Source: Gracilaria domingensis (taxonomy: Eukaryota > Rhodophyta > Florideophyceae > Gracilariales > Gracilariaceae). Taken from it: a stretch of DNA of 30,826 nt. Of this stretch, positions 1 to 28,917 are shown piece after piece. The stretch spans positions 123,779 through 154,604 of the forward strand of contig VCMS01000161.1 of assembly GCA_022539475.1 (NCBI GenBank). Direction: 5' to 3'. Numbering within the stretch: position 1 is the first letter of the stretch; each line of letters starts with the position of its first letter. The notes below the pieces were generated by a model that saw only the letters and a program-made list of their open reading frames with translations, made no database searches and was not told the origin of the DNA. The position numbers and the translations under genes were made by a program.

Positions 1-181
1 ACTGTTGGAAGTCATGCTGTCACTGACATCAAGCAGTTGAGATGTGTGGAGTCTAGAATGGTACCTTGATACGTGAAACCGAGATTGATGTTGTTCTGTT
101 TGGTATACTACGTTGCTGTGTGGTATACTCATTATGGGTTGAACGTTTATGGCTACACTGGAACGCTATCGTTCAGCTGGG

Positions 182-223
182 ATGACCACAAGGTACAACG
201 ATGACAGGTTGTACAGTGGTCAT
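182..223 (+). promoter_or_regulatory. Nested inverted repeat in U3 of LTR A
   Basis: ATGACCAC (182-189) pairs with GTGGTCAT (216-223), and inside it GTACAAC (193-199) with GTTGTAC (208-214). Present in all complete type A LTRs. It lies upstream of the promoter and would fold in RNA only at the 3' end of the transcript. Confidence 0.65.
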
Positions 224-417
224 GAAGTACAGGGTTGAAGGCTATGTATGTGCACACAAGGTACAGGTGGCAGCACTGTCAGTGTTGTGAAGTTTACACC
301 ATGTTTGAGTTGTGCTACATGCAAATGTGTGTGTATGGATGAATGGAACATGTTGCAGCTAAGTGACTGACGTCATGTGGTTTACAGGTACTTGTTGATA
401 ATGTGGGACTTGGGTAT

Positions 418-464
418 CTGGCACGTACACATTACGGTGTGGTGTACAGATTACAGCGTGCCAG
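418..464 (+). promoter_or_regulatory. Second nested inverted repeat in U3 of LTR A
   Basis: CTGGCACG (418-425) pairs with CGTGCCAG (457-464), and GTACAC (425-430) with GTGTAC (442-447). Copies differ in the loop (ATTACGG or TCTACGG) but not in the arms. Confidence 0.6.
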
Positions 465-877
465 CAACACGTGAAGTGTGATGTGATGTTCCGTAAGCAT
501 GGCTGGTCATGATGGTGAGGTGTTGCATTGTGTGTATGCATGGTCGTGTTACTATGGTGAGCTGTCATATTGTTGACTGCGTTGATGTGTGGTGCTCGTG
601 GTGTGGTGTAGAAATGTGTCGGTACACTGTCAGGGACGTGCATGGCTACTACATTGGTGTGCATTGTTGTGCATTGTTGTGCACTGCTGTGCAGTAGTGT
701 ACGGAATTGTTGTGCACTGTTGTACACTGTTGTGCGTTGTTGTGCACTGCTGTTGTAAGCAGTTTGGCACTGTTACCATGTTATGTCTGTAGATGATTGG
801 TAGTATTGAGTGTCTCTGGTTAGTGAGTTGCATGTTGGTCAGAGTTGGAGTCCCATGATGGAGTAGCGAAGAAGTGC

Positions 878-883
878 TATATA
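878..883 (+). promoter_or_regulatory. LTR A core promoter, TATA box
   Basis: TATATA in the context GTGCTATATAGG, about 115 bp before the LTR end, with an AP-1/Gcn4-like TGACTCA at 889-895. The same block is in every full type A LTR, and the related type B LTR has TATATAA at the matching position. Transcription would be expected to start about 25-30 bp downstream; that start is inferred. Confidence 0.6.
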
Positions 884-995
884 GGTTGTGACTCAAGCAC
901 CTCCAAGAAAATCTGAGCCAGAGCTGGCGAACTTCCCTTGCATCCCCCCATCCTTCCTCATGTCAACTTTCCGATCCCAGCTATAACCTCTAACA

Positions 996-1009
996 GGTTA
1001 TGGGCCCAG
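996..1009 (+). other. Primer-binding site, half initiator-Met tRNA
   Basis: GGTTATGGGCCCAG follows the LTR with no spacer. It is complementary to the anticodon stem-loop region of eukaryotic initiator-Met tRNA, not to its 3' CCA end. This is the copia arrangement, in which a cleaved half tRNA primes minus-strand synthesis. The identical 14-mer follows the LTRs at 8036, 12478, 15876, 19534 and 30198. Confidence 0.9.
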
Positions 1010-2096
1010 CCCCGCTGACCTCTGCCGTTGTCGTTCGTCATGAGGTTTCCCTTTCCGCCGCTCTCCCTCACCGCCGTCCATGTTGTTGAACGCCGTTGTT
1101 GATGTTTTCGATGTTTTTTTTTTCGTCGTGTTTCTTGTCGTTGACCGGTTTGGTGGTGTTGTATTTCCCTTTTGGTTTGCGTTCCTCCCTGAGGGCGTTG
1201 TGGTGGTAGTGGCTCGACGCTGTTCTACTTTCGTGATTCTGTTTGGTTTCTAGTTCATTTTCGTTTTCGTCGATCGCTATCCGCTTTGTTGGTTTCTCGC
1301 CTATGTTTTCGTTGTTGTGATCCCCGTGTCGTGTTTGCGGGTTCTGATCCGAGGGGTTGAGTACCGTTGTCGTTGAAGTCTGTGCACTTGTGTGTTGTGC
1401 TCAGCATTCGTTTTTTCGTTGAAGTCCGGGCACTGCCTGTGTGCTCGGCATTTGTGGTGATCACTTGGGTTTCGGTGCGACGAGCGGTTGATCCGAGCAA
1501 TCGGGGACGTTAGTCTGGCGGCTTGAACCAATTCGGACGCGCTGTCCAGCGGGCTCCCACCGGTCCTTCGGGGCGGATAACGGTGTCGGTCGAAAGACCT
1601 GGTAGTACCGCGAGTGCTGAAGTTGACGGGGTGCCGTGACGTACTGCATCGAACAGGGGTGGTTCACCTTTGTTGTGTGTGACCTGACTGTGTGTTGGGT
1701 TCTTGATCTGTTGGGAAGACAAACTGAAACGAGCTTTTGATCCGTACTGCTGCGGTGGTGCGGGGAGGCGACGTGTCGTAGGCTGACCTCCTTTTCAGGA
1801 TCAGGCCGCTTGTGAACTTGATTGTTTGCTTGCTGGAAGCGTACCTCGGTTTGTCATAGTACCTGCAGTATCAGGGTCGCGCAAGTTCTTGCAAGAGACC
1901 AGAGAGGGTTTAACTTGGTGAAGGCATATCTTTGGTCACTAACCATCCTCTGGACGTCTCGTAGAGAGCGACGCGCCTTCTCCTGGAACGCAGGAGGAGG
2001 TAGACAGAAGAAAGTCGTTTCCTACCCGGAGGGTCTCCGGGGGTCAGGGGTCCGACTCCCTAGGGTACCAGGAATCTTAGTTCCTTATGCACCCGA
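996..2096 (+). other. Type A leader, homologous to the type B gag-pol leader
   Basis: About 1.1 kb between the PBS and the hairpin array. It aligns along its length with the 5' untranslated leader of the autonomous type B element (12478-13571); homology stops just after the shared GCACCCGA. Near its 3' end are three consecutive hairpins: CCCGGAG/CTCCGGG at 2025-2041, AGGGG/TCCCT at 2046-2061, and AGGAA/TTCCT at 2070-2085. A small hairpin GCAAG/CTTGC lies at 1881-1892. A 132-codon open frame at 1822-2220 begins with TTG and is closed by TAG after four codons in the type B leader, so I treat it as chance. Conservation between two element types suggests packaging or priming signals; that role is inferred. 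Confidence 0.8.
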
Positions 2097-2131
2097 TCGC
2101 TTGCAGTTTGTTGTTGTTATTCTCGCTACAG

Positions 2132-2324
2132 TTCAGGAGGTGGAGTGTTTCCTGCCTGAGACTGTGTGTGTGAGATTCGTTTATGACACTTCCTGGGTGT
2201 TTGTTGTTGAACATGTCTGAGCTCTTCTTTGTATCAACTTTCGAAAGTTGCGATGTTACTTGTCCGTTGTTATCGTGACTTCCTTACGCAGGCTCAGAAG
2301 GTTGTCATTATGTATGCCCGGGAG
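2132..2324 (+). ncRNA. Hairpins 1 and 2 (array entry)
   Basis: Hairpin 1 is at 2132-2160: outer arms TTCAGG and CCTGAG (one T-G wobble), inner pair GGA/TCC in place of the usual TGA/TCA, a double compensatory change. A 16-bp perfect palindrome, CAACTTTCGAAAGTTG, lies at 2235-2250; elements 2, 3 and 4 have TTTGGAAA in its centre. Hairpin 2 (core AGGTTG at 2299-2304, ATG at 2314-2316) is degenerate: only CTC/GAG of its outer stem is clear. Between them, 2161-2234 shows nothing I can name. Confidence 0.6.
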
Positions 2325-2329
2325 TTGTG

Positions 2330-2730
2330 CTGTGTTCTTCGCTTTACTTATGTTGTACCGGAAGGTTGCTATTTGTCTGCATGTCCGGTGTGTACGGAAG
2401 AGCTGTTTGACTCAGGAGGTTGAGTGTTTCATGCCTGAGTGTATTATTGATCACTTGTGATGTGTGTTTTGCTCTCCATGTTGTTTTCATGTTACCGGGA
2501 GGTTGTTACATGTATGCATGTCTGGGTTATGGAAGAGCTGTTCGATTCAGGAGGTTGAGTGTTTCATGCCTGAGTGTTTGTTTCATTGCTTGTGATGTTT
2601 GTTATGCTCTTTGTTTCAGTTTGTTGTCACTGGAAGTTTGCTATGTGTTTGCATGTCCGGTGTGAATGAAAGAGCTGTTTGACTCAGGAGGTTGACTGTT
2701 TCATGCCTGAGTGTGTAGGACATCATTTTG
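2330..2730 (+). repeat. Three ~135-bp higher-order repeat units, two hairpins each
   Basis: Each unit has one CCGG-type and one CTCAGG-type hairpin separated by a GAAGAGCTGTT-like linker. Unit 1: hairpin 3 at 2357-2389 (ACCGGA/TCCGGT) and hairpin 4 at 2410-2440 (ACTCAGG/CCTGAGT). Unit 2: hairpin 5 at 2494-2527 (ACCGGGA/TCTGGGT, one mismatch) and hairpin 6 at 2545-2575 (ATTCAGG/CCTGAGT, a T-G wobble). Unit 3: hairpin 7 at 2628-2662 (CACTGGA/TCCGGTG) and hairpin 8 at 2682-2712 (ACTCAGG/CCTGAGT). The spacing and shared linker show growth by segmental duplication followed by divergence that kept pairing. Confidence 0.75.
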
Positions 2731-2741
2731 TATGGACGGGG

Positions 2742-3050
2742 CCTGGAAGGTTGTCATTTTGCAAGTCCAGGATGCCTGTGTTGCAATTCTCTTTGTGTGT
2801 TATTCGCGGAAGGTTGCTGTGATTTTGCATGTCCGCTGTTTGAAGAGATTTGTTGAGCTGGAAGGTTGCTCTCTTTTGCATGTCCAGCTGTTACGAAGGT
2901 GATGTTGAACTGGAAGGTTGCTACTTGTTGCATGTCCGGTGTTCAGAAAATCGGTCTCGAACCAGAAGGTTGCGTGTGTTTGCATGTCTGGTTGAAGTAC
3001 TGTGATTAATGGTGCTCCGAGAGGTTGTTATGTGTTACATGCTCGGAGCA
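2742..3050 (+). ncRNA. Hairpins 9-14, individually diverged
   Basis: Hairpin 9 at 2742-2771 (CCTGGA/TCCAGG); 10 at 2806-2836 (GCGGA/TCCGC); 11 at 2856-2889 (AGCTGGA/TCCAGCT); 12 at 2909-2940 (ACTGGA/TCCGGT, one T-G); 13 at 2960-2993 (AACCAGA/TCTGGTT); 14 at 3013-3050 (TGCTCCGAG/CTCGGAGCA, 9 bp). Loops are 18-21 nt and keep AGGTTG at the 5' side and CATG (CAAG in 9) at the 3' side. Hairpin 14 has inner pair TGT/ACA where 10-13 have TGC/GCA. Spacing is 50-60 bp. Confidence 0.78.
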
Positions 3051-3168
3051 ACATTTGTTTTCGGTGTCTAGAATGTGGTCACTTATGGACGTCTAGATCC
3101 CTTTTGTGAAGGACTCTGAGGTGCATTTTCGTTCCGAGAGAAGTTCAAAGCCAGTGAGAGAGGGAGGG
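3051..3168 (+). other. Spacer after the array with an extra hairpin and internal polypurine motif
   Basis: TCTAGA at 3067-3072 pairs with TCTAGA at 3092-3097; inside, TGT pairs with ACG here and with ACA in element 3. CAGTGAGAG at 3152-3160 pairs with CTCTCACTG at 3196-3204. The segment ends in the purine run GAGAGAGGGAGGG, directly followed by TGTC at 3169, which resembles the true polypurine tract plus LTR start. Confidence 0.6.
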
Positions 3169-3285
3169 TGTCAGAGTAACATCCTCAGACTTAAGCTCTC
3201 ACTGTCTGTTGTTGATATCTGTTTGAACCGGAAGCTGTTGTCTTCGTTGCCATACGAAGGATGAGTAAGAAGTTCAGAGTGTGTG

Positions 3286-3298
3286 ACAAAAGGAGGGT
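3286..3298 (+). promoter_or_regulatory. Second internal polypurine-like motif
   Basis: ACAAAAGGAGGG followed by TGTTT. It is the middle one of three GGAGGGTGT motifs in this 3' region; the others end at 3168 and 3528. I see no junction starting here, so use as a plus-strand primer is not supported in this window. Confidence 0.4.
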
Positions 3299-3514
3299 GT
3301 TTCCAGAACATCCGAATCGTACAGAACAGAACTATGATCTTGGTATACTGCTAGAACGGTACAGCCGTGGGCTTGGACACACACTAACTGCACTTGATGT
3401 TTAGTTGTCACCGTTGGCCATCGTAAGGCTTATTTGCAGTGACATTGGTTTCTTGACTGCCCGACTTGTTACTTAGCAAGTACTTGACCAGGAGCGCTGG
3501 TTGCTTGAAGTCAG

Positions 3515-3528
3515 TAACAGAGGGAGGG
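3515..3528 (+). promoter_or_regulatory. Polypurine tract, element 1
   Basis: AACAGAGGGAGGG abuts the 3' LTR start TGTTGG, the expected position of the plus-strand primer. The same block precedes LTRs at 4875, 10566, 18543, 22115 and 29278. Confidence 0.85.
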
Positions 3529-4521
3529 TGTTGGAAGTCATGCTGTCACTGACATCAAGCAGTTGAGATGTGTGGAGTCTAGAATGGTACCTTGATACGT
3601 GAAACCGAGATTGATGTTGTTCTGTTTGGTATACTACGTTGCTGTGTGGTATACTCATTATGGGTTGAACGTTTATGGCTACACTGGAACGCTATCGTTC
3701 AGCTGGGATGACCACAAGGTACAACGATGACAGGTTGTACAGTGGTCATGAAGTACAGGGTTGAAGGCTATGTATGTGCACACAAGGTACAGGTGGCAGC
3801 ACTGTCAGTGTTGTGAAGTTTACACCATGTTTGAGTTGTGCTACATGCAAATGTGTGTGTATGGATGAATGGAACATGTTGCAGCTAAGTGACTGACGTC
3901 ATGTGGTTTACAGGTACTTGTTGATAATGTGGGACTTGGGTATCTGGCACGTACACATTACGGTGTGGTGTACAGATTACAGCGTGCCAGCAACACGTGA
4001 AGTGTGATGTGATGTTCCGTAAGCATGGCTGGTCATGATGGTGAGGTGTTGCATTGTGTGTATGCATGGTCGTGTTACTATGGTGAGCTGTCATATTGTT
4101 GACTGCGTTGATGTGTGGTGCTCGTGGTGTGGTGTAGAAATGTGTCGGTACACTGTCAGGGACGTGCATGGCTACTACATTGGTGTGCATTGTTGTGCAT
4201 TGTTGTGCACTGCTGTGCAGTAGTGTACGGAATTGTTGTGCACTGTTGTACACTGTTGTGCGTTGTTGTGCACTGCTGTTGTAAGCAGTTTGGCACTGTT
4301 ACCATGTTATGTCTGTAGATGATTGGTAGTATTGAGTGTCTCTGGTTAGTGAGTTGCATGTTGGTCAGAGTTGGAGTCCCATGATGGAGTAGCGAAGAAG
4401 TGCTATATAGGTTGTGACTCAAGCACCTCCAAGAAAATCTGAGCCAGAGCTGGCGAACTTCCCTTGCATCCCCCCATCCTTCCTCATGTCAACTTTCCGA
4501 TCCCAGCTATAACCCCTAACA
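3529..4521 (+). repeat. 3' LTR of element 1 (type A)
   Basis: 993 bp, nearly identical to 3-995; both share private variants such as TCATTATGGG where other copies have TCAGTATGGG. It is followed at once by a type A tail lacking its first seven bases, not by unrelated flanking DNA. Confidence 0.95.
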
Positions 4522-4874
4522 GTAACATCCTCAGACTTAGGCTCTCACTGTCTGTTGTTGATATCTGTTTGAACCGGAAGCTGTTGTCTTCGTTGCCATA
4601 CGAAGGATGAGTAAGAAGTTCAGAGTTTGTGACAAAAGGAGGGTGTTTCCAGAACATCCGAATCGTACAGAACAGAACTATGATCTTGGTATACTGGTAG
4701 AATGGTACAGCTGTGGACTTGGACACACACTAACTGCACTTGATGTTTGATTGTCACCGTTGCACGTCGTAAGGTCTAAGTGCAGTAACGTTGGTTTCCT
4801 CATTACCCGACCTGTTACTTAGCATGTACTTGGGCAGCAGCGATAGTTGCTTGAAGTCAGTAACAGAGGGAGGG
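4522..4874 (+). repeat. Orphan type A tail, lacking its first 7 bp
   Basis: 353 bp matching the 360-bp tail (3169-3528) minus TGTCAGA. It lies between two LTRs and ends with the polypurine tract. It is the 'b' subtype (ATGGTACAGCTGTGG, GTTGCACGTCG), like 18184-18542 and 28918-29277, whereas element 1's own tail is the 'a' subtype. It therefore came from a different copy. Confidence 0.85.
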
Positions 4875-11695: not shown

Positions 11696-12477
11696 TGTTG
11701 GATGTTGACCCTGTGCTGTCACTGAAAACCAAAAGTGCTGGGGAGCATGGGCTGTTTTGAAGTGTGCCGTTGGAAAAGCGCATATGCGCCTCTGCGCAAA
11801 CTCAACGTGAAACGGGCTTCTGATTGGCTACTGCAAATGGTCATATGCATTGTGGTTGTACAAGTGTTGTGGCGCTAATGGGTTGTTTCCGGGGTACACG
11901 TGTGTAGCTAGTACACTGGGCATACTGTACATGATGCACAGGTACACACGTATGTACGTGGACATGTAGGACAGCTTCATGTGACTTTGGCACTATGGTG
12001 AAGAGTAGATGCGCTGTCAAGAGGTTTACACTGGTATTGTTGGTGACGTAGGACTTGGAGTGAGTTTGTGGTGACGTGTTAGTTGGTGAGCTTGTACGTA
12101 AGTGTTATGGTGACGTGTACGGATTACAGTGTGTTGGCACTATGTGAATCTGTGCATGGTCATGGTTATGTGTAGGCACGTAACTTGATGTGCACGGTTG
12201 TGCACTGTTGTGCGTTGTTGTGCTTTGTTGTTGTAAGCTGTCATGATAGTGTGGCAGTGTTACCATGTTATGTTAGAAGATGATTGGTAGTATTGAGTGT
12301 CTCTAGCTAGTGGTTTAGGTACTGCTTGGAGTTGAAGTTGTGCGATGATTGCGCAAAGTAGTTCTATATAAGCGGTGACTCGAGCGCCTCCAAGTAAATT
12401 CCGAGCCAGAGCTGGCGAACTTCCCTTCATTCCCCTATCCTTTCTTCAACCTTCCCTTTCAGCTTCAACCTCTATCA
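11696..12477 (+). repeat. 5' LTR, type B
   Basis: 782 bp, TGTTGGATG...CTCTATCA. The first part is unlike the type A LTR and holds a 12-bp palindrome GCGCATATGCGC at 11778-11789. The last ~240 bp are clearly related to type A: the GATTGGTAGTATTGAGTGTC block, the TATA region and the GAGCCAGAGCTGGCGAAC block. TATATAA is at 12365-12371. Confidence 0.93.
12365..12371 (+). promoter_or_regulatory. LTR B core promoter, TATA box
   Basis: TATATAA in GTTCTATATAAGCGG, about 107 bp before the LTR end, at the position matching the type A TATA box. Confidence 0.6.
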
Positions 12478-13723
12478 GGTTATGGGCCCAGCCCCGCTGA
12501 CCTCTGCCGTTATCGTTCCCTCTCGCCGCTGATTCTCGCCGCTCTCCCTCACCGCCGTTCATCCGCTTCGCTGTTTTCCCTTTCGTTCCCTTCTCCGTTG
12601 CGTCGGGTGTGTTGACCGTATCGTTGGTCGGTGTTGACTTTCTTCTTTCGGTCGTTCGTTCCTCCCTGAGGGCGTTTTGTTGGTGGTGGTTCGACGTTGA
12701 CTTTCTATCGTGATTGTGTTTGGGCGCTCGTTGTTGCCCGTGTTGTCGATCGCTATCCGCTTCGTTTGGTCTCCCTCTGTTATTATTGTTGGGATCCCCA
12801 CGTCGTCTTTGTGGATTCTGATCCGAGAGGTTGAGGACCTTGTGTTGTTGAAGTCTGTGCACTTGTGTGTTGTGCTCAGCATTCGTTTCTGTTGAAGTCC
12901 GTGCACTGCATGTGTGCTCGGCAGGTGTGGTGATCACTTGAGTTTCGGTGCGACGAGCGGTTGATCCGAGCAATCGGGGACGTTAGTCTGGCGGCTTGAA
13001 CCAAAGCATTTGTTCCGTCTTGCGAGTTTCCCACCGGTCCTTAGGGGCAGATAACGGTGTCGGTCGAAAGACCTGGTATTCTTCGCGGGGGCATTTGTGG
13101 ACGGGGTGCCGTGACGTACTGCACTGGACAGGAGGTGGTCCACCTTTATTGTTGCTGACCTGACTTTGTGTTGGGTTCTTGATCTGTGGCGAAGGCAAAC
13201 TGAAACGAGCTTTTGATCCGTACTGCTTCGGTGGTGCGGGGAGGCGACGTGTCGTAGGCTGACCTCTTCTTTAGGATCAGGCCGCTTGTGAACTTCATTG
13301 TTTGCTTGCTAGAAGCGTACCTCGGTTTGTCATAGTACCTGCAGTTTCAGGGTCGCGCAAGTTCTTGCAAGAGACCAGAGAGGGTTTTACTTGGTGAAGG
13401 CATATCTTCGGTCATTAACCATCCTCTGGAAGTCTCGTAGAGAGCGACGCACCTTCTCCTAGAACGCAGGAGGAGGTAGAGTGCAGAAGTAATTTCTTAC
13501 CCGGAGAGTCCCCGGGGGTCAGGGGTCCGACTCCCTAGGGTATCAGGAATCTTAGTTCCTTTTGCACCCGACTATTCATCTTTATTGTTGTTGTTCTTTG
13601 CTGTTATTGTTGTTTCTTGTTGTTTGTTGTTGTTGTTTGCTGTTTTTGTTTACCGCTGTCGTTTGCTATTGCCGCCTGTCTGCCACCGCATTATCTGGTT
13701 CGCTGCAGTTCCTCTCTTACATC
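12478..13723 (+). other. PBS and 1.25-kb leader of the type B element
   Basis: PBS 12478-12491, then the leader homologous to type A up to 13571. The last 150 bp (13572-13723) are specific to type B and rich in TTG/TTGTT repeats, likely unstructured RNA in front of the gag start. The hairpin cluster at CCCGGAG...GGTATCAGGAATC is kept, with one A-C mismatch in the first stem. Confidence 0.78.
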
Positions 13724-14882: not shown

Positions 14883-15875
14883 TGTTGGAAGTCATGCTGT
14901 CACTGGCATCAAGCAGTTGAGATGTGTGGAGTCTAGAATGGTACCTTGATACGTGAAACCGAGATTGATGTTGTTCTGTTTGGTATACTACGTTGCTGTG
15001 TGGTATACTCAGTATGGGTTGAACGTTTACGGCTACACTGGAACGCTATCGTTCAGCTGGGATGACCACAAGGTACAACGATGACAGGTTGTACAGTGGT
15101 CATGAAGTACGGGGTTGAAGGCTATGTATGTGCACACAAGGTACAGGTGGCAGCACTGTCAGTGTTGTGAAGTTTACACCATGTTTGAGTTGTGCTACAT
15201 GCAAATGTGTGTGTATGGATGAATGGAACATGTTGCAGCTAAGTGACTGACGTCATGTGGTTTACAGGTACTTGTTGATGATGTGGGACTTGGGTATCTG
15301 GCACGTACACATTACGGTGTGGTGTACAGATTACAGCGTGCCAGCAACACGTGAAGTGTGATGTGATGTTCCGTAAGCATGGCTGGTCATGATGGTGAGG
15401 TGTTGCATTGTGTGTATGCATGGTCGTGTTACTATGGTGGGCTGTCATATTGTTGACTGCGTTGATGTGTGGTGCTCGTGGTGTGCTGTAGAAATGTGTC
15501 GGTACACTGTCAGGGACGTGCATGGCTACTACATTGGTGTGCATTGTTGTGCATTGTTGTGCACTGCTGTGCAGTAGTGTACGGAATTGTTGTGCACTGT
15601 TGTACACTGTTGTGCGTTGTTGTGCACTGCTGTTGTAAGCAGTTTGGCACTGTTACCATGTTATGTCTGTAGATGATTGGTAGTATTGAGTGTCTCTGGT
15701 TAGTGAGTTGCATGTTGGTCAGAGTTGGAGTCGCATGATGGAGTAGCGAAGAAGTGCTATATAGGTTGTGACTCAAGCACCTCCAAGTAAATATGAGCCA
15801 GAGCTGGCGAACTTCTCTTGCATCCCCCCATCCTTCCTCATGTCAACTTTCCTATCCCAGCTATAACCTCTAACA
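14883..15875 (+). repeat. Left LTR of the tandem composite
   Basis: 993-bp type A LTR, 'b' subtype (GGCATC, TTTACGGC, TACGGGGTTG), followed by the PBS at 15876-15889. Confidence 0.94.
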
Positions 15876-16976
15876 GGTTATGGGCCCAGCCCCGCTGACC
15901 TCTGCCGTTTGTCGTTCGTCATGAGGTTTCCCTTTCCGCCGCTCTCCCTCACCGCCGTCCGTGTTGTTGAACGCCGTTGTTGATGTTTTCGATGTTTTTT
16001 CTCCGTCGTGTTTCTTGTCATTGACCGGTTTGGTGGTGTTGTATTTCCCTTTTGGTTTGCGTTCCTCCCTGAGGGCGTTCTGGTGGTAGTGGCTCGACGC
16101 TGTTCTACTTTCGTGATTCTGTTTGGTTTCTAGTTCATTTTCGTTTTCGTCGATCGCTATCCGCTTTGTTGGTTTCTCGCCTCTGTTTTCGTTGTTGTGA
16201 TCCCCGTGTCGTGTTTGCGGGTTCTGATCCGAGGGGTTGAGTACCGTTGTCGTTGAAGTCTGTGCACTTGTGTGTTGTGCTCAGCATTCGTTGTTTCGTT
16301 GAAGTCCGGGCACTGCCTGTGTGCTCGGCATTTGTGGTGATCACTTGGGTTTCGGTGCGACGAGCGGTTGATCCGAGCAATCGGGGACGTTAGTCTGGCG
16401 GCTTGAACCAATTCGGACGCACTGTCGAGCGGGCTCCCACCGGTCCTTCGGGGCAGATAACGGTGTCGGTCGGAAGACCTGGTAGTACCGCGAGTGCTGA
16501 AGTTGACGGGGTGCCGTGACGTACTGCATCGAACAGGGGTGGTTCACCTTTGTTGTGTGTGACCTGACTGTGTGTTGGGTTCTTGATCTGTTGGGAAGAC
16601 AAACTGAAACGAGCTTTTGATCCGTACTGCTGCGGTGGTGCGGGGAGGCGACGTGTCGTAGGCTGACCTCCTTTTCAGGATCAGGCCGCTTGTGAACTTG
16701 ATTGTTTGCTTGCTGGAAGCGTACCTCGGTTTGTCATAGTACCTGCAGTATCAGGGTCGCGCAAGTTCTTGCAAGAGACCAGAGAGGGTTTAACTTGGTG
16801 AAGGCATATCTTTGGTCACTAACCATCCTCTGGACGTCTCGTAGAGAGCGACGCGCTTTCTCCTGGAACGCAGGAGGAGGTAGACAGAAGAAAGTCGTTT
16901 CCTACCCGGAGGGTCTCCGGGGGTCAGGGGTCCGACTCCCTAGGGTACCAGGAATCTTAGTTCCTTATGCACCCGA
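15876..16976 (+). other. PBS and leader, composite left unit
   Basis: The same 1.1-kb leader as elements 1 and 2, ending at GCACCCGA. No coding sequence is supported. Confidence 0.8.
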
Positions 16977-17011
16977 TCGCTTGCAGTTTGTTGTTGTTAT
17001 TCTCGCTACAG

Positions 17012-18065
17012 TTCAGGAGGTGGAGTGTTTCCTGCCTGAGACTGTGTGTGTGAGATTCGTTTATGACACTTCCTGGGTGTTCATTGTTGAACATGTCTGA
17101 GCTCTTCTTTGTATCAACTTTGGAAAGTTGAGATGTTACTTGTCCGTTGTTATCGTGACTTCCTTACGCAGGCTCAGAAGGTTGTCGTTATGTATGCCCG
17201 GGATGTGTGCTGTGCTCTTCGCTTTACTTCTGTTGTACCGGAAGGTTGCTATTTGTCTGCATGTCCGGTGTGTATGGAAGAGCTGTTTGACTCAGGAGGT
17301 TGAGTGTTTCATGCCTGAGTGTATTATTGATCACTTGTGATGTGTGTTTTGCTCTCCATGTTGTTCTCATGTTACCAGTAGGTTGTTACATGTATGCATG
17401 TCCTGGGTATGGAAGAGCTGTTTGACTCAGGAGGTTGAGTGTTTCATGCCTGAGTGTATTATTGATCACTTGTGATGTGTGTTATGCTCTCCATGTTGTC
17501 CTCATGTTACCAGAAGGTTGTTACATGTATGCATGTCCTGGTTATGGAAGAGCTGTTCGATTCAGGAGGTTGAGTGTTTCATGCCTGAGTGTTTGTTTCA
17601 TTGCTTGTGATGTTTGTTTTGCTCTTTGTTTCAGTTTGTTGTCACTGGAAGTTTGCTATGTGTTTGCATGTCCGGTGTGAATGAAAGAGCTAATTGACTC
17701 AGGAAGTTGAGTGTTTCATGCCTGAGTGTGTAGGACATCATTTTGTATGGACGGGGCCTGGAAGGTTGTCATTTTGCATGTCCAGGATGCCTGTGTCGCA
17801 ATTCTCTTTGTGTGTTATTCGCGGAAGGTTGCTGTGATTTTGAATGTCCGCTGTTTGAAGAGATTTGTTGAGCTGGAAGGTTGCTCTCTTTTGCATGTCC
17901 AGCTGTTACGAAGGTGATGTTGAACTGGAAGGTTGCTACTTGTTGCATGTCCGGTGTTCAGAAAATCGGTCTTGAATCAGAAGGTTGCGTGTGTTTGCAT
18001 GTCTGGTTGAAGTACTGTGATTAATGGTGCTCCGAGAGGTTGTTATGTGTTACATGCTCGGAGCA
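17012..18065 (+). ncRNA. Hairpin array, composite left unit, one extra repeat unit
   Basis: Same order as element 1 with one additional two-hairpin unit (about 130 bp near 17341-17475), giving about 16 hairpins. The duplicated CCGG-type hairpins read ACCAGTA/TCCTGGGT and ACCAGA/TCCTGGT; element 1 has ACCGGGA/TCTGGGT there, so both arms changed. The ninth hairpin has the canonical GCATG (GCAAG in the other copies). Confidence 0.78.
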
Positions 18066-18542
18066 ACATTCGTTTTCGGTGTCTAGAATGTGGTCACTTG
18101 TGGACATCTAGATCCCTTTTGTGAAGGACTCTGAGGTGCATTTTCGTTCCGAGAGAAGTTCAAAGCCAGTGAGAGAGGGAGGGTGTCAGAGTAACATCCT
18201 CAGACTTAGGCTCTCACTGTCTGTTGTTGATATCTGTTTGAACCGGAAGCTGTTGTCTTCGTTGCCATACGAAGGATGAGTAAGAAGTTCAGAGTTTGTG
18301 ACAAAAGGAGGGTGTTTCCAGAACATCCGAATCGTACAGAACAGAACTATGATCTTGGTATACTGGTAGAATGGTACAGCTGTGGACTTGGACACACACT
18401 AACTGCACTTGATGTTTGATTGTCACCGTTGCACGTCGTAAGGTCTAAGTGCAGTAACGTTGGTTTCCTCATTACCCGACCTGTTACTTAGCATGTACTT
18501 GGCAGCAGCGATAGTTGCTTGAAGTCAGTAACAGAGGGAGGG
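18066..18542 (+). other. 3' region of composite left unit: tail and polypurine tract
   Basis: TCTAGA/TCTAGA hairpin with inner TGT/ACA, internal polypurine motif, then the 359-bp 'b' subtype tail from 18184 to the polypurine tract ending at 18542. Confidence 0.75.
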
Positions 18543-19533
18543 TGTTGGAAGTCATGCTGTCACTGGCATCAAGCAGTTGAGATGTGTGGAGTCTAGAATG
18601 GTACCTTGATACGTGAAACCGAGATTGATGTTGTTCTGTTTGGTATACTACGTTGCTGTGTGGTATACTCAGTATGGGTTGAACGTTTACGGCTACACTG
18701 GAACGCTATCGTTCAGCTGGGATGACCACAAGGTACAACGATGACAGGTTGTACAGTGGTCATGAAGTACGGGTTGAAGGCTATGTATGTGCACACAAGG
18801 TACAGGTGGCAGCACTGTCAGTGTTGTGAAGTTTACACCATGTTTGAGTTGTGCTACATGCAAATGTGTGTGTATGGATGAATGGAACATGTTGCAGCTA
18901 AGTGACTGACGTCATGTGGTTTACAGGTACTTGTTGATGATGTGGGACTTGGGTATCTGGCACGTACACATTACGGTGTGGTGTACAGATTACAGCGTGC
19001 CAGCAACACGTGAAGTGTGATGTGATGTTCCGTAAGCATGGCTGGTCATGATGGTGAGGTGTTGCATTGTGTGTATGCATGGTCGTGTTACTATGGTGGG
19101 CTGTCATATTGTTGACTGCGTTGATGTGTGGTGCTCGTGGTGTGCTGTAGAAATGTGTCGGTACACTGTCAGGGACGTGCATGGCTACTACATTGGTGTG
19201 CATTGTTGTGCATTGTTGTGCACTGCTGTGCAGTAGTGTACGGAATTGTTGTGCACTGTTGTACACTGTTGTGCGTTGTTGTGCACTGCTGTTGTAAGCA
19301 GTTTGGCACTGTTACCATGTTATGTCTGTAGATGATTGGTAGTATTGAGTGTCTCTGGTTAGTGAGTTGCATGTTGGTCAGAGTTGGAGTCGCATGATGG
19401 AGTAGCGAAGAAGTGCTATATAGGTTGTGACTCAAGCACCTCCAAGTAAATATGAGCCAGAGCTGGCGAACTTCCCTTGCATCCCCCCATCCTTCCTCAT
19501 GTCAACTTTCTATCCCAGCTATAACCTCTAACA
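18543..19533 (+). repeat. Middle (shared) LTR of the composite
   Basis: 991-bp type A LTR, 'b' subtype. Preceded by the polypurine tract and followed by PBS 19534-19547, so it belongs to both units. Confidence 0.94.
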
Positions 19534-20631
19534 GGTTATGGGCCCAGCCCCGCTGACCTCTGCCGTTGTCGTTCGTCATGAGGTTTCCCTTTCCGCCGCT
19601 CTCCCTCACCGCCGTCCGTGTTGTTGAACGCCGTTGTTGATGTTTTCGATGTTTTTTCCGTCGTGTTTCTTGTCATTGACCGGTTTGGTGGTGTTGTATT
19701 TCCCTTTTGGTTTGCGTTCCTCCCTGAGGGCGTTCTGGTGGTAGTGGCTCGACGCTGTTCTACTTTCGTGATTCTGTTTGGTTTCTAGTTCATTTTCGTT
19801 TTCGTCGATCGCTATCCGCTTTGTTGGTTTCTCGCCTCTGTTTTCGTTGTTGTGATCCCCGTGTCGTGTTTGCGGGTTCTGATCCGAGGGGTTGAGTACC
19901 GTTGTCGTTGAAGTCTGTGCACTTGTGTGTTGTGCTCAGCATTCGTTTTTTCGTTGAAGTCCGGGCACTGCCTGTGTGCTCGGCATTTGTGGTGATCACT
20001 TGGGTTTCGGTGCGACGAGCGGTTGATCCGAGCAATCGGGGACGTTAGTCTGGCGGCTTGAACCAATTCGGACGCACTGTCGAGCGGGCTCCCACCGGTC
20101 CTTCGGGGCAGATAACGGTGTCGGTCGGAAGACCTGGTAGTACCGCGAGTGCTGAAGTTGACGGGGTGCCGTGACGTACTGCATCGAACAGGGGTGGTTC
20201 ACCTTTGTTGTGTGTGACCTGACTGTGTGTTGGGTTCTTGATCTGTTGGGAAGACAAACTGAAACGAGCTTTTGATCCGTACTGCTGCGGTGGTGCGGGG
20301 AGGCGACGTGTCGTAGGCTGACCTCCTTTTCAGGATCAGGCCGCTTGTGAACTTGATTGTTTGCTTGCTGGAAGCGTACCTCGGTTTGTCATAGTACCTG
20401 CAGTATCAGGGTCGCGCAAGTTCTTGCAAGAGACCAGAGAGGGTTTAACTTGGTGAAGGCATATCTTTGGTCACTAACCATCCTCTGGACGTCTCGTAGA
20501 GAGCGACGCGCCTTCTCCTGGAACGCAGGAGGAGGTAGACAGAAGAAAGTCGTTTCCTACCCGGAGGGTCTCCGGGGGTCAGGGGTCCGACTCCCTAGGG
20601 TACCAGGAATCTTAGTTCCTTATGCACCCGA
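19534..20631 (+). other. PBS and leader, composite right unit
   Basis: Type A leader as in the other copies, with small indels. No coding sequence is supported. Confidence 0.8.
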
Positions 20632-20666
20632 TCGCTTGCAGTTTGTTGTTGTTATTCTCGCTACAG

Positions 20667-21017
20667 TTCAGGAGGTGGAGTGTTTCCTGCCTGAGACTGT
20701 GTGTGTGAGATTCGTTTATGACACTTCCTGGGTGTTTATTGTTGAACATGTCTGAGCTCTTCTTTGTATCAACTTTGGAAAGTTGCGATGTTACTTGTCC
20801 GTTGTTATCGTGACTTCCTTACGCAGGCTCAGAAGGTTGTCGTTATGTATGCCCGGGATGTGTGCTGTGCTCTTCGCTTTACTTCTGTTGTACCGGAAGG
20901 TTGCTATTTGTCTGCATGTCCGGTGTGTATGGAAGAGCTGTTTGACTCAGGAGGTTGAGTGTTTCATGCCTGAGTGTATTATTGATCACTTGTGATGTGT
21001 GTTTTGCTCTCCATGTT

Positions 21018-21058
<41 letters not shown>

Positions 21059-21639
21059 TGTTTTGCTCTCCATGTTGTTCATGTTACCAGAAGGTTGTTA
21101 CATGTATGCATGTCCTGGTTATGGAAGAGCTGTTCGATTCAGGAGGTTGAGTGTTTCATGCCTGAGTGTTTGTTTCATTGCTTGTGATGTTTGTTTTGCT
21201 CTTTGTTTCAGTTTGTTGTCACTGGAAGTTTGCTATGTGTTTGCATGTCCGGTGTGAATGAAAGAGCTATTGACTCAGGAGTTGAGTGTTTCATGCCTGA
21301 GTGTGTAGGACATCATTTTGTATGGACGGGGCCTGGAAGGTTGTCATTTTGCAAGTCCAGGATGCCTGTGTTGCAATTCTCTTTGTGTGTTATTCGCGGA
21401 AGGTTGCTGTGATTTTGATGTCCGCTGTTTGAAGAGATTTGTTGAGCTGGAAGGTTGCTCTCTTTTGCATGTCCAGCTGTTACGAAGGTGATGTTGAACT
21501 GGAAGGTTGCTACTTGTTGCATGTCCGGTGTTCAGAAAATCGGTCTTGAATCAGAAGGTTGCGTGTGTTTGCATGTCTGGTTGAAGTACTGTGATTAATG
21601 GTGCTCCGAGAGGTTGTTATGTGTTACATGCTCGGAGCA
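20667..21639 (+). ncRNA. Hairpin array, composite right unit, with poly-T insertion
   Basis: The same hairpin order as element 1. A run of 39 T interrupts the linker between hairpins 4 and 5. Hairpin 5 reads ACCAGA/TCCTGGT. The final hairpin TGCTCCGAG/CTCGGAGCA is intact at 21602-21639. Confidence 0.77.
20999..21077. repeat. T39 run flanked by a 20-bp direct repeat
   Basis: Thymines fill 21019-21057. The 20 bases before (20999-21018, starting GTGTTTTGC, ending CATGTTG) are exactly repeated after it (21058-21077). The other type A copies have a single copy of this linker and no T run. This resembles a target-site duplication around a poly(A) tail inserted on the minus strand by a non-LTR retrotransposition event. 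A sequencing or assembly artefact cannot be excluded. Confidence 0.7.
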
Positions 21640-22114
21640 ACATTCGTTTTCGGTGTCTAGAATGTGGTCACTTGTGGACATCTAGATCCCTTTTGTGAAG
21701 GACTCTGAGGTGCATTTTCGTTCCGAGAGAAGTTCAAAGCCAGTGAGAGAGGGAGGGTGTCAGAGTAACATCCTCAGACTTAGGCTCTCACTGTCTGTTG
21801 TTGATATCTGTTTGAACCGGAAGCTGTTGTCTTCGTTGCCATACGAAGGATGAGTAAGAAGTTCAGAGTGTGTGACAAAAGGAGGGTGTTTCCAGAACAT
21901 CCGAATCGTACAGAACAGAACTATGATCTTGGTATACTGGTAGAACGGTACAGCCGTGGACTTGGACACACACTAACTGCACTTGATGTTTGTTGTCACC
22001 GTTGGCCATCGTAAGGTTAATTGCAGTAACATTGGTTTCTTGACTGCCCGACTGTTACTTAGCATGTACTTGACCAGGAGCGCTGGTTGCTTGAAGTCAG
22101 TAACAGAGGGAGGG
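21640..22114 (+). other. 3' region of composite right unit: tail and polypurine tract
   Basis: Internal polypurine motif, 357-bp tail from 21758 ('a' subtype, ACGGTACAGCCGTGG), and the polypurine tract ending at 22114. Confidence 0.75.
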
Positions 22115-23421: not shown

Positions 23422-24194
23422 TGATAGAGGTTGAAGCTGAAAGGGAAGGTTGAAGAAAGGATAGGGGAATGAAGGGAAGTTCGCCAGCTCTGGCTCGGAA
23501 TTTACTTGGAGGCGCTCGAGTCACCGCTTATATAGAACTACTTTGCGACACCATCGCACAACTCCAACTCCAAGCAATACCTAAACCACTAGCTAGAGAC
23601 ACTCAATACTACCAATCATCTTCTAACATAACATGGTAACACTGCCACACTATCATGGCAGCTTACAACAACAAAGCACAACAGTGCACAACAGTGCACA
23701 ACAACTTACGTGCCTACACATAACCATGACCATGCACAGATTCACATAGTGCCAACACACTGTAATCCGTACACGCCACCATAACAGTTACGTACAAGCT
23801 CACCAACTAACACGTCACCACAAACTCACTCCAAGTCCTACGTCACCAACAATACCACAGTGTAAACCTCTTGACAGCGCATCTACTCTTCACCATAGTG
23901 CCAAGTCACATGAAGCTGTCCTACATGTCCACGTACATACGTGTGTACCCTGTGCATCATGTACAGTATGCCCAGTGTATAGCTACACACGTGTACCCTG
24001 GAAACAACCCATTAGCGCCACAACACTTGTACAACCACAATGCATATGACCATTTGCAGTAGCCAATCAGAAGCCCGTTTCACGTTGAGTTTGCGCAGAG
24101 GCGCATATGCGCTTTTCCAACGGCACCCTCCAAAACAGCCCATGCTCCCCAGCACTTTTGGTTTTCAGTGACAGCGCAGGGTCAACATCCAACA
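23422..24194 (-). repeat. 3' LTR, type B
   Basis: 773 bp; in sense TGTTGGATG...CTCTATCA, matching 11696-12477 with scattered substitutions and small indels. The palindrome GCGCATATGCGC and the TATATAA box are retained. The left flanking bases are TGCCAA of the type A tail. Confidence 0.93.
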
Positions 24195-24206
24195 CCCCCC
24201 CTCTGT
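24195..24206 (-). promoter_or_regulatory. Polypurine tract, type B
   Basis: In sense, ACAGAGGGGGGG directly before TGTTGGATG. It lies about 10 bp after the pol stop codon, so type B has essentially no 3' untranslated spacer, unlike type A with its 360-bp tail. Confidence 0.85.
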
Positions 24207-24214
24207 CACTGACT

Positions 24215-27200
24215 TCAAACTTCTATGTGGATCACACCACCGGCTTCGCGGAACTTCTCGTGCTTCACTCGCGCAAGTGGCTTATTCAGCATGTCGGCAA
24301 CCATGGAATCCGTCGGGCAGTAGAACAGCACAATCGACTTGGCCTGCAGAGCTTCTCGAGTGAAGTGGAACCGAATGTCAATGTGCTTGGTTCGCCTGTT
24401 CACCACTCCATTTCGAGCAAGGTCAATGCTGCCCTGGTTGTCAACATACATGGGAGTTGGTTCAACCAGCAGCTTCACAGACCCGTCTGCTTCCATGCCA
24501 ATCACACTGCCAATGCCGTTCCAAAGTCGCCTAAGCCAGATCGCCTCCTTGGTGCCAGAGCACAAGCTCACGTACTCAGCCTCTGCACTCGACAGAGCAA
24601 CTACCTCCTGTTGACGAGAGACCACGACACAGCACCACCGCACATCATGAACAAGTATCCACTAGTGGACTTGCGGTTGGCAACATCGCCAGCCCAGTCA
24701 GAGTCCACATAGCCGTGCAGTTGCAAATCGGTGCTGGAGCCATACGTCAACCCGAACGTGGTAGTGCCATTGAGGTAGCGAAGAACACGCTTGACCGCCT
24801 TCCAGTGAGTGTTTCCCGGCTTCTCAACATACTTGGCCAGCTTAGCCACAGCATATGAGATGTCTGGACGAGTTCCCACAGACAGATACATGAGGCAGCC
24901 AATCGCCTGACGATACGGTACATGCGTGAGCACTTCCTCCTCAACAGACAAGTCCACACCGCACTCCATAGGAGTGTCAACGGGTTTCGACAGCTGCATG
25001 CCAAATCGCTCCAGGACCTTGTTCGTGTACGCTGACTGAGTCAAGTACAGCTCTCGCTTGGTTCTGTCTCGATGGATTTCAAATCCAAGAACCATGCGAG
25101 CTTCTTTGAGGTCCTTCATGCGGAAACGACTTGACAGCTCTGCCTTCACACGTTCCACGGTTTTCATGCTCGGACTCGCAATCAGCAAGTCGTCAACATA
25201 CAGAGCAATGATAACCAAGAAACCCAGTATGATCCCGGTGTAGACACACTCGTCTGCGTCATTCGGCTTGAGGTGCATTTCACCAACAAGGAAGGCGTAT
25301 ATCTTGGCGTGCCACTGTCTTGGTGCTTGTCTAAGCCCATAGATCGCTTTCTTCAGTCGGCACACCAAGTCCTCCTTTCCCTGCTGTGTGAATCCCATTG
25401 GCTGCTCCATGTACACTGTCTCGTCAAGGTCACCGTTCAGAAAGGCAGTCTTCACATCCATCTGGTGCAAGTGGAAGTCTCGTACGGCAGTCACTGACAG
25501 GATCATTCTGATGGATGTGAACTTCACCACAGGTGCATATGTCTCTGAGAAGTCCACACCCTCGATCTGCAGGAAGCCTCTTGCAACTACACGAGCCTTG
25601 TAACGCACTGTCGGTTCACCAGATGACGAAGCCTCATACTTCTGTACATACACCCACTTGGACGAAATCACGTTGCTGTCTGCTGGCCTTGGCACTAGAT
25701 CCCATGTGTCATGCTCCATCAATGACTCGTACTCACTCTTCATCGCCTTCTTCCAAGCTTCGGAATCAGGACGTGACACTGCGTCACCGTACGACGAAGG
25801 AGTATCATCACTGGCTGTAAGGAAAGCACTGGCACCACGCCACCACGAGGATGGCGTCTTTCTCTGACGTGTGGATCTACGAAGGGGCTGCGTCTCTGTC
25901 ACTTCCGGCTCATCTTGTGGAACTGGTGTGGTGTCTTCATCCGTACTGGCATTCGTGGTACTCTCATGAGAAGCTGGTGCAGAAGGATCATCTTCAGAAT
26001 GATCGGCGGATGTGTCGGAGGTTGGGGCTTCAGCAGATACCGACTTGTCGACCAAGTCGATATCCGCATAGTCCTCGTGTTCAGAGTGCTCGTCACTTTC
26101 AGTTGCAGAGCACTCGTCAAACCTCACATCTCGTGACACAATCACCTTCTTCTTCTGGCTGTCCCACAACTTGTACCCGTGGGAGCCTGAAGTGTACCCA
26201 ATGAAGATGGCCTCCACTGCACGCTCTTCCAGCTTCTTCAACTTGTGATCAACCACCTTGTACCAGCAACGGCTACCAAACACACGCAGATTGCTCAGAT
26301 CAGGCTTCTGTCCATGCCACAGCTCAAACGGCGTCACGTCACTCGGAAGCGCTTTGCAGGTCACTCTGTTGCGCACATACACAGAAACATTCAGAGCCTC
26401 AGCCCAAAAGCTTTTTGGCACATTCTTGTGATGCAATATTGACCTGACCAAGTCCATGAGTGTGCGATTGAACCTCTCGGCAAGCCCGTTCTGCTGTGGA
26501 TTATAAGGCACAGTTCGCTGATGCTCAATACCGTACTGCTCAAGCTTTTCGGAGAACCGATTGGACAAGTACTCACCACCATTGTCAGTGCGTAATGCAC
26601 GCAACACACTCTTGCGAGCGGTGATGGTTAACACTTTCCTGCCCATCTGGTTCTCCACAAACCTGAGCCACTTGATGAACATCCGGAACACCTCATCCTT
26701 CGTCTTGAGCATGTACAAGAAGCAGTAGCGGCTGTGGTCATCGATGAATGTGACAAAGTAGTGCGAGCCTCCCAAGGACTTCACGTTCACTGGACCCGAT
26801 ATATCAGAGTGTACCAGGTCCAGTACGTGTTCAGCTCGTTCCCCCCCTTGCTTGGGAGTCGGAGCACGGGTTGCTTTGCCCACTACACAAGAGCCACACA
26901 CATCCAGCTTCTGAGCCACATCCACATTCAGACCTGACACAACACCGTTTCGAGCCATCTGCTTGATGCCTTCCACATTCACATGAGCCATTCGAGCATG
27001 CCAAAGAGACAAGTCTGACACAAGCGCACTGTCCGTGTCCGTGAACTGATCTGCAGCAGTGCAAAGGTAGTACAGGTCTTTGACGCGGCGCCCAACGGCA
27101 ACCACTTTTGACCCCTTGTACACACATACCTTTTCTTTGTCAAACACTACCGTGCAGCCCAGATCACAAATCTGTGACACAGACAACAAATGGTACCGTA

Positions 27201-28247
27201 AGTTGGGCACGTGTACCACCTGCTTTAGCTTGCACTTACGCTTGGACCCTTCAACTGTCAGATCGAGCTCCACACTTCCGTGACCAACAGACTGCAACTT
27301 GGAATCATTGCCGATACTCACACCCGACGACACCTTTGTCTCGTACGTTTGGAACATTGAGTCATCATAAGTCATGTGTGCAGTAGCTCCAGAGTCAACA
27401 ATCCAGTCACTGTTAGTGGCCTTGTCGGCACCATTCGCAATGAGGCATACAAAGTCAGAATCGCTGCCGCCCGTACCTTGCTCATCGTTGAGCGCGGTAT
27501 GTACACTTGGGTGAGCAGCATCGATCTGATCCTTGTTAGCCCCATCACGTTGCTTTTTGAAACAGTTCTTCTGGATATGACCCTTTATGCCACAATAGTA
27601 ACACACAACCGACTTCAATGACTTCCTACGAAACTGGCGTCCCAAGAGTGCAGCATCAACACCGGACTCCTCCTTGGCACGATCACTCATACGTTGCTCT
27701 TCTTGCAATAGACGGCTCTTCACAAACTCCATAGTGAGTTGGCGATCTCCGATCGTGGTGTCAATTGCAACAATGAGGTGCTCAAAACGATCCGGAAGTC
27801 CACATAGAGCAGCCATAGCAATGTCCTCTTCTTCAACGTTGACGTCCATACTCTTGAGGTCGGAGGCCAAGTGCCGAACACGATTGATGAATTGCAACAT
27901 CTTCTCGTCCTCGCGCATTTTGACAGAGTAGAAGCACGTCTGGCGTTGATTCGGTTAAGAAGAGTCTTACGTTGAAACACATTGCAAATGGCCTTCCATG
28001 CGTCAGCAGCAGTCTCGATGTCTCGAATGTGATCCAAGTGCTCGTCGGCAAGCGTGAGTCCAATGATAGCTCTAGCCCTTTCGTCGCGGATTTGCCACTT
28101 TACCAGTTCCTCTTCATCCGTGGGTGCAGAAGTGGTGAGATGGTTCTTGAGGTCTTTCAGTGCAAGTACATACTGAATCTTCTGCTTCCAAGTATGGAAG
28201 TTATCCTCACCCAACTTCTCGATCTTGAGCCCACTAAACGAGTCCAT
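24215..28247 (-). pseudogene. gag-pol: Copia-type gag-pol polyprotein, two frameshifts
   Basis: Starts at ATG 28247 and ends at TGA 24215, about 1345 codons, normal for copia. Gag N-terminus first; a 1-nt deletion at about 27934 breaks the frame (the plus-strand copy has CGTGCCTTC, this one CGTGCTTC). A continuous 1105-residue frame follows (27918-24601). In that frame: zinc knuckle C106/C109/H114/C119; protease DSGA at 175-178; integrase zinc finger H307/H312/C341/C344; catalytic D372, D445, E481; acidic linker about 600-675; RT with D821 and YVDD 907-910; RNase H start D1072. A second 1-nt loss near 24616-24622 (TGGTCTCTCGTC) shifts the frame; RNase H continues with SSAEAEY and VDNQGSIDL to the stop. 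No envelope gene. The domain order is protease-integrase-RT-RNase H, which defines Ty1/copia. Confidence 0.93.
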
Positions 28248-28917
28248 GATGTAAGAGAGGAACTGCAGCGAACCAGATAATGCGGTGGCAGACAGGCGGC
28301 AATAGCAAACGACAGCGGTAAACAACAACAGCAAACAACAACAAACAACAACAAACAACAATAACAACAAACAACAACAACAATAAAGATGAATAGTCGG
28401 GTGCAAAAGGAACTAAGATTCCTGGTACCCTAGGGAGTCGGACCCCTGACCCCGGAGACTCTCCGGGTAAGAAACGACTTCTGCAGTCTACCTCCTCCTG
28501 CGTTCTAGGAGAAGGTGCGTCGCTCTCTACGAGACTTCCAGAGGATGGTTAATGACCGAAGATATGCCTTCACCAAGTAAAACCCTCTCTGGTCTCTTGC
28601 AAGAACTTGCGCGACCCTGAAACTGCAGGTACTATGACAAACCGAGGTACGCTTCTAGCAAGCAAACAATGAAGTTCACAAGCGGCCTGATCCTAAAAAG
28701 GAGGTCAGCCTACGACACGTCGCCTCCCCGCACCACCGAAGCAGTACGGATCAAAAGCTCGTTTCAGTTTGCCTTCGCCACAGATCAAGAACCCAACACA
28801 AAGTCAGGTCAGCAACAATAAAGGTGGACCACCTCCTGTCCAGTGCAGTACGTCACGGCACCCCGTCCACAAATGCCCCCGCGAAGAATACCAGGTCTTT
28901 CGACCGACACCGTTATC
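28248..28917 (-). other. Type B leader, minus strand, 5' part missing
   Basis: Homologous to 13042-13723. The part next to gag is (TTG)n-like in sense (28321-28385 reads CAACAACAA on the plus strand). The CCCGGAG/CTCCGGG hairpin is intact here. It stops at CCGTTATC, where the full leader would continue TGCCCCTAAGG. Confidence 0.82.

Follow-up and report, generated by a model that had tools for sequence, protein, structure and literature searches.

The question raised by this locus is what a retroelement that encodes no protein does with an array of small hairpins at the position of gag-pol. The element occupies positions 3-4521 of the window, by which we mean the whole 30,826-nucleotide stretch of Gracilaria domingensis DNA that was analyzed, and it is a complete LTR element with no protein genes (Table 1). 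Its LTRs, its polypurine tract (AGAGGGAGGG, immediately before the 3' LTR) and its primer site, which is the same as that of a Copia element in the same window (hereafter the partner), are those of an LTR retroelement of the partner's group. The gag-pol with integrase before reverse transcriptase that marks an autonomous Ty1-Copia element was not found, as the element has no long coding frame. Specifically, ATG frames in 2132-3528 reach at most 58 codons on the plus strand and 61 codons on the minus strand, which agrees with its preliminary description as non-autonomous and rules out the array as coding sequence. A 132-aa frame (1822-2220, TTG start) that spans the leader end and the array start is without a Pfam match. 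The kilobase-size non-coding internal domain between the LTRs is that of a LARD, while a TRIM, with very short LTRs and almost no internal domain, is excluded by the LTR length of 993 bp and the internal region of 2533 bp (996-3528). We class the element as LARD-like, an assignment made from its layout. Judged by LTR identity the element is also young, since its own LTR pair is 99.9% identical and the LTR pairs within the window are 99.6-99.9% identical.

Table 1. Features of the array element and of its Copia partner (window coordinates)
Feature	Position	Strand	Basis
5' LTR (TGTTGGA...CTAACA)	3..995	+	1 mismatch/990 vs 3' LTR, aligned part 3-992; last three bases read from sequence
Primer binding site, GGTTATGGGCCCAGC	996..1010	+	15-nt exact complement of host tRNA-Met positions 26-40 (anticodon arm)
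Leader, common to Copia partner	1011..2131	+	84% to 12476-13597, 91% to 28917-28373
Hairpin unit u1	2131..2161	+	pattern scan, unit alignment, hairpin model
Degenerate hairpin unit, core kept	2292..2323	+	two A.C mismatches among five proximal outer pairs; 12.5 bits, E=0.37
Hairpin unit u2	2356..2390	+	pattern scan, unit alignment, hairpin model
Hairpin unit u3	2410..2440	+	pattern scan, unit alignment, hairpin model
Hairpin unit u4	2493..2527	+	pattern scan, unit alignment, hairpin model
Hairpin unit u5	2545..2575	+	pattern scan, unit alignment, hairpin model
Hairpin unit u6 (AGTT core)	2628..2662	+	pattern scan, unit alignment, hairpin model
Hairpin unit u7	2682..2712	+	pattern scan, unit alignment, hairpin model
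Hairpin unit u8 (AG replaces TG)	2741..2772	+	pattern scan, unit alignment, hairpin model
Hairpin unit u9	2804..2838	+	pattern scan, unit alignment, hairpin model
Hairpin unit u10	2856..2889	+	pattern scan, unit alignment, hairpin model
Hairpin unit u11	2908..2941	+	pattern scan, unit alignment, hairpin model
Hairpin unit u12	2960..2993	+	pattern scan, unit alignment, hairpin model
Hairpin unit u13 (9-bp outer stem)	3013..3050	+	pattern scan, unit alignment, hairpin model
Non-coding tail, polypurine tract (AGAGGGAGGG) at its end	3051..3528	+	longest ATG frames short; tail copies found
3' LTR	3529..4521	+	aligned to 5' LTR; last three bases read from sequence
Partial Copia partner copy: leader end, gag-pol frames, polypurine tract, LTR	23425..28917	-	alignment, Pfam, hairpin model (no match)

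The surrounding layout has several further features. The polypurine-tract motif together with an LTR-like TGT start occurs three times in the tail (3148-3171, 3277-3300 and 3508-3531), and the first two of these copies look like fossil or extra plus-strand start sites. Tail copies that lack both leader and array are located at 4521-4874, directly after one LTR and followed by another, and at 28918-29277, before an LTR. A compound LTR-internal-LTR-internal-LTR unit at 14883-23106 has CTGAA on both flanks and lies within an inverted LTR, and thus looks like a single insertion or a later duplication within it. Finally, each of eight plus-strand LTRs of the array-element type contains an antisense frame of 122-178 aa (for example 359-727 on the minus strand); these frames overlie 10-bp repeats and are probably a composition effect rather than a gene.

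The partner copy at 28917-23425 on the minus strand has the second half of the leader, which is 91% identical to that of the array element, followed by the Pfam order gag (Retrotran_gag_2), integrase and RVT_2, with a coding region that is broken into several frames. Its Gag zinc knuckle scores 20.7 bits, just below the Pfam cut-off of 20.8 (E=0.00043). The 15-nt primer site at 12478, which opens a partner-type leader in another partial copy (12476), is the same 15-mer as in the array element and is matched by four host tRNA-Met genes; we take the primer site of both elements to be of the half-tRNA type, as in Drosophila copia. Leader similarity to the partner stops about ten bases before the array start, and the partner has gag-pol at that position, so the preliminary description of an array in place of gag-pol is borne out. 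The window's Copia pol has 561 relatives; the named ones among the 120 listed are a transcriptome entry (84% over 56% of the query), Chondrus crispus proteins (45%, 42% and 40%) and a few with unspecific names.

We compared the hairpin model with these coding elements. At E up to 10 it does not match the window's partner sequence, and at E up to 1 it does not match the gag-pol parts of four other loci (L050, L056, L057 and L058), so the array appears to be special to the non-coding element. Outside the arrays, a strict scan did find single AGGT/TG hairpins in two LTRs of the partner type, at 12321 (plus strand) and 23578 (minus strand). These have stems that are mostly G.U and an inner stem of ACT or ATT, not TGN, and were rejected as array units because the hairpin model is silent on them at E up to 10. 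They are probably chance hits, as about one is expected across both strands of the window.

The array itself, at 2132-3050, consists of 13 well-formed two-helix hairpins and one degenerate unit, so that the preliminary description of about 14 units sharing one fold was correct, coordinates included. Outer stems range from GCGGA/TCCGC up to TGCTCCGAG/CTCGGAGCA, inner stems are TGC/GCA, TGA/TCA, TGT/ACA or GGA/TCC, and apical loops are 5, 6, 8 or 9 nt, with the outer-stem range present as described, all four inner stems found and the loops within the 5-9 nt given earlier. The internal loop that had been called fixed is nearly so: AGGT is exact in 12 of the 13 units and TG likewise in 12 of 13, the exceptions being AGTT in the unit at 2628 and AG at the TG position in the unit at 2741. 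Units follow one another at intervals of 161 and then 64 nt, and at 52-83 nt from there on; tandem periods of 135 and 52 are also present. A strict scan (exact AGGT/TG core, 3-bp inner stem, at least 4 outer pairs) finds 11 units in 2132-3050, compared with a mean of 0.022 and a maximum of 1 in 500 shuffles of 2101-3100; a relaxed scan that permits one core change per side finds 13, compared with a mean of 1.34 and a maximum of 5 in 200 shuffles. RNAalifold returns the same fold for the 13 units when no structure is supplied. When pairing probabilities are computed on the whole internal RNA with a span of up to 120, the drawn outer stem has a mean probability of at least 0.86 in 9 of the 14 units, 0.45 and 0.62 in the units with inner stems at 2367 and 2421, and at most 0.01 in the three whose inner stems start at 2303, 2504 and 2693. 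No Rfam family matched, either at the gathering threshold over the window or at E up to 10 for 1800-3530, a search that the preliminary description had suggested. By eye no known catalytic core is seen, which sets aside a ribozyme, and a palindromic apical loop is seen by eye in u4 only, which sets aside kissing loops. A perfect inverted repeat, ATCAC-TT-GTGAT, is located between array units at 2450-2461.

The preliminary description also held that the stems covary from unit to unit, and this is clearly observed. Covariation was computed on the 13 alignable units with the degenerate unit left out, which gives 10 pairs and 130 pair cells. Paired cells make up 95.4% of the 130, a level reached by 0 of 500 shuffles, and only 20.9-45.9% of cells pair when the registers are slid by one to three columns. 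The covariation score is 0.746 versus 0.306 in shuffles (0 of 500 as high), both sides have changed in 9 of the 10 pairs, a number reached by 1 of the 500 shuffles, and the count of further pair types is 19, reached by 12 of the 500. The comparison to a phylogenetic null that had been proposed for this fold was run in a simple form, using a unit tree based on 35 columns and re-throwing the parsimony changes of each column randomly on its branches in 2000 sets. Observed pairing was 0.954 versus a null maximum of 0.869, and the double-change score was 0.654 versus a null maximum of 0.300, with 0 of 2000 sets reaching either value. Since paired letters change together, the fold of this RNA appears to be maintained for some purpose, and we regard it as highly probable that the hairpin array is selected.

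Regarding what the purpose might be, the constant parts of the units are the unpaired AGGU/UG loop and the inner stem, and the variable parts are the outer stems and apical loops, which is as expected of an internal-loop protein site that is shown many times. The array element and the partner have the same primer site and the same leader, and the LTR pair of the array element is young. We propose that the array element would move using the partner's Gag, reverse transcriptase and integrase. Where the partner has gag-pol, its RNA has about 13 hairpins that display one small motif, an asymmetric AGGU/UG internal loop beside a UGC/GCA-type inner stem, with outer stems that are free in sequence provided that they pair. 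The array would work by multivalent docking of an RNA-binding protein, and with so many binding sites an RNA lacking genes could compete for particle entry. Packaging of gene-less RNAs into the particles of another element has, to our knowledge, been worked out in few cases only. The partner's Gag is the first candidate for the docked protein because a gene-less RNA must enter Gag particles and because zinc knuckles bind unpaired G, the zinc knuckles of retroviral nucleocapsids being known to bind unpaired guanines. The whole reading, that a selected array presents the AGGU/UG loop repeatedly to a binding protein with Gag as first candidate, is offered tentatively, and Gag as the putative ligand is no firmer than that. 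A stronger version is more doubtful, namely that a non-coding parasite swapped its whole coding region for purpose-evolved covarying hairpins that capture the helper's Gag and win packaging by valency.

The ligand could instead be a host factor, a putative assignment that we regard as possible and nearly as likely as Gag. The array may dock an RNA-binding protein of the host that exports the RNA from the nucleus, stabilizes it or keeps it from ribosomes, much like retroviral export elements, and although doubtful this would fit a conserved internal loop beneath freely covarying stems. It would also fit the result that the hairpin model did not match the Gag-encoding RNA of the partner in the parts searched, which is expected if the ligand is not Gag. 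Indeed, with the motif absent from partner RNA the normal cargo of Gag is seemingly without it; this is the main argument against Gag and places a host factor close behind. However, the partner RNA copes without the motif, and an export or stability need that is peculiar to the array element must therefore be assumed. The constitutive transport element and the Rev response element also present hairpin internal loops to a protein, but they do so at few sites versus about 13 in the array, for which an export role is putative.

We next consider whether the units could be a tandem array without function, serving at most to keep the transcript at a sufficient length, with stems left over from its duplication history. 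Evidence comes from other copies in the genome (77.9 Mb, 680 contigs). Array DNA gave 61 first-look candidates, 40 of them scored, with 45 places listed, and first-look candidates elsewhere number 80 for the tail, 196 for partner gag and 319 for the leader, all of these being rough candidates and not exact copy numbers. As array candidates are fewer than those of partner gag (61 versus 196, both rough), there is no sign that the array element outran its partner. The genome contains 165 occurrences of a unit pattern with 18 set bases, and none of the reversed pattern. A first version of a core-only scan, with up to 2 core mismatches, gave 1325 hits that included chance hits in LTRs; as used, with at most 1 mismatch, 418 were dropped and 738 hits lie inside arrays, a number that includes loci repeating the window copies, and 169 outside. 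All five proximal outer pairs are present in 595 of the 738 hits inside arrays versus 0 of the 169 outside (102 of 160 versus 0 of 44 as distinct sequences), and four of the five pairs are reached outside arrays in 42 of 169 (4 of 44 distinct). Among the best 40 of the 319 leader candidates, 38 continue into array sequence: 26 by adjoining array places, one (win4) by window alignment and 11 in fetched loci, two of which hold only the first 205 bases of the array and one of which is cut at base 701. The other two, L057 and L058, are interrupted before the array. Using the most divergent array (C167) as query revealed no more distant array family among 40 scored of 57 first-look candidates, and a guessed junction pattern had no match.

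Between leader end and tail start, 49 array readings, in which some loci repeat the window copies and one (L046) was read twice, contain 6 to 13 structured units, with 13 units in 19 readings and 12 units in 13. Array lengths run from 506 to 1054 with classes of 784, 919 and 1054, about 135 bases apart. These variable unit numbers and length classes, and the tandem periods of 135 and 52, are what a tandem array would show. So is a pooled comparison of orthologous copies (37 arrays, of which 5 duplicates were dropped to leave 32 distinct copies, with five copies that have a 135-bp duplication and best pieces under 800 bases left out): variable columns are 28% of paired sites versus 31% of spacer, so that stem variation is not lower than spacer variation. 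This pooled comparison is uninformative, however, because private variants, which probably date from after insertion, make up most of the total.

We therefore separated private variants from variants common to at least 3 copies, using 62 sequences from which 3 with fewer than 500 mapped positions were removed and in which 7 of the remaining 59 are identical to another, leaving 52 distinct copies. The ratio of stem plus core to spacer plus loop variants is 116:183 when private and 36:112 when shared (p=0.0029), and pairing is kept, at normally paired pairs, by 20 of 77 private versus 18 of 29 shared variants (p=0.0012). With thresholds of 2, 4 or 5 copies, pair-keeping has p=0.002-0.009 and density p=0.016, 0.033 and 0.17, and among 28 full-length copies density has p=0.032 and pair-keeping p=0.011. 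Removal of the units at 2303 and 2504 leaves pair-keeping at 10 of 20 shared versus 20 of 70 private (p=0.11) and density at p=0.0003. When partners are slid by 2-4 columns, pair-keeping has p=0.14-1.0, while the density test stays low (p=0.01-0.08) because the slid stems overlap most of the real sites. A compensatory change within an orthologous unit, C-G to T-A at 2295/2320, is present in three copies and falls in the degenerate unit. Inherited variants thus bear a signature of selection, visible only with shared and private variants separated. For the claim of a functional fold this means that the avoidance of stems and core by shared variants speaks in its favor, whereas the pooled variation and the loss of pair-keeping significance without two units do not. 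A non-functional tandem array is rendered improbable by this avoidance, and by stems that change on both sides together, which duplication alone does not make.

A related issue is the strand on which the hairpins act. Compared with shuffles, the 1000-nt region has a slight excess of folding stability as sense RNA (z -1.9) and a larger one as antisense (z -8.0), and we do not use this folding energy as support. Among the 13 units there are 10 G.U and 0 A.C cells, versus 177 and 69 in registers slid by 1-4, a ratio from which ten of ten G.U has a chance of about 0.04. This is a mild excess of G.U over A.C between units, and the degenerate unit, outside the 13-unit count, has two A.C. Variants in copies have a G.U to A.C ratio of 9:5 when shared and 18:15 when private. 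Sense RNA is thus only weakly favored over DNA or antisense. The hairpins might instead work at the DNA level, for example by cruciform extrusion or as palindrome-like sites for a protein in the integrated or cDNA copy, or else as antisense RNA, which would agree with the antisense folding energy and with variant ratios that do not single out sense RNA. We consider it quite improbable given the G.U cells between units, a predicted stability that is higher for sense than for antisense RNA in 14 of 14 units, and an internal loop that is asymmetric and non-palindromic. Least probable of all is that the hairpins tie up a processing enzyme and so act as a decoy or shield against silencing by the host. 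Only their number and their location in the RNA of a non-coding parasite speak for it, and their stems, at 5-9 bp plus 3 bp, are short for known Dicer substrates.

Returning to multivalent docking, its nearest way of working is found among viruses, where dispersed packaging signals consist of many stem-loops that have a short common motif and variable stems and are read by the coat protein. Such dispersed signals are described for single-stranded RNA viruses (PMC6281560). They are scattered through viral genomes, whereas the array units are 52-83 nt apart from the third on and are in a non-coding retroelement. Among retroelements, BARE2 is a Copia element that lacks a Gag of its own; its RNA enters BARE1 particles, and it is said to retain dimerization and packaging signals, according to the available part of its description (PMC3735527). 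The array element would likewise be a Gag-less RNA in a partner's particles, though packaging of BARE2 was demonstrated experimentally, as far as that description goes, while for the array element we infer it. The same part of the BARE2 description (PMC3735527) does not mention a hairpin array. Like the array element, grass LARDs have LTRs, a primer site and a polypurine tract around a long non-coding interior without gag-pol; compared by description, the array element differs in its repeated small hairpin with a fixed internal loop, its Copia partner and its red algal host. As regards novelty, titles and abstract openings in the open-access literature, outside which most subscription papers lie, revealed no LTR element with such an array, in keeping with the preliminary description. 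Conserved RNA structure as such is not new, since non-autonomous LARDs and TRIMs are already stated to have well-conserved RNA secondary structure in the available part of a report (PMC7215508).

This locus places a likely helper and a likely parasite side by side, with a common primer site and leader, that differ by a compact and separately testable array. The units of the array, about 13 in number, are natural variants of a single internal loop that is a candidate site for protein binding. The array is also a clear test case for the idea that retroelements without coding capacity build up RNA structures through duplication and compensatory change.
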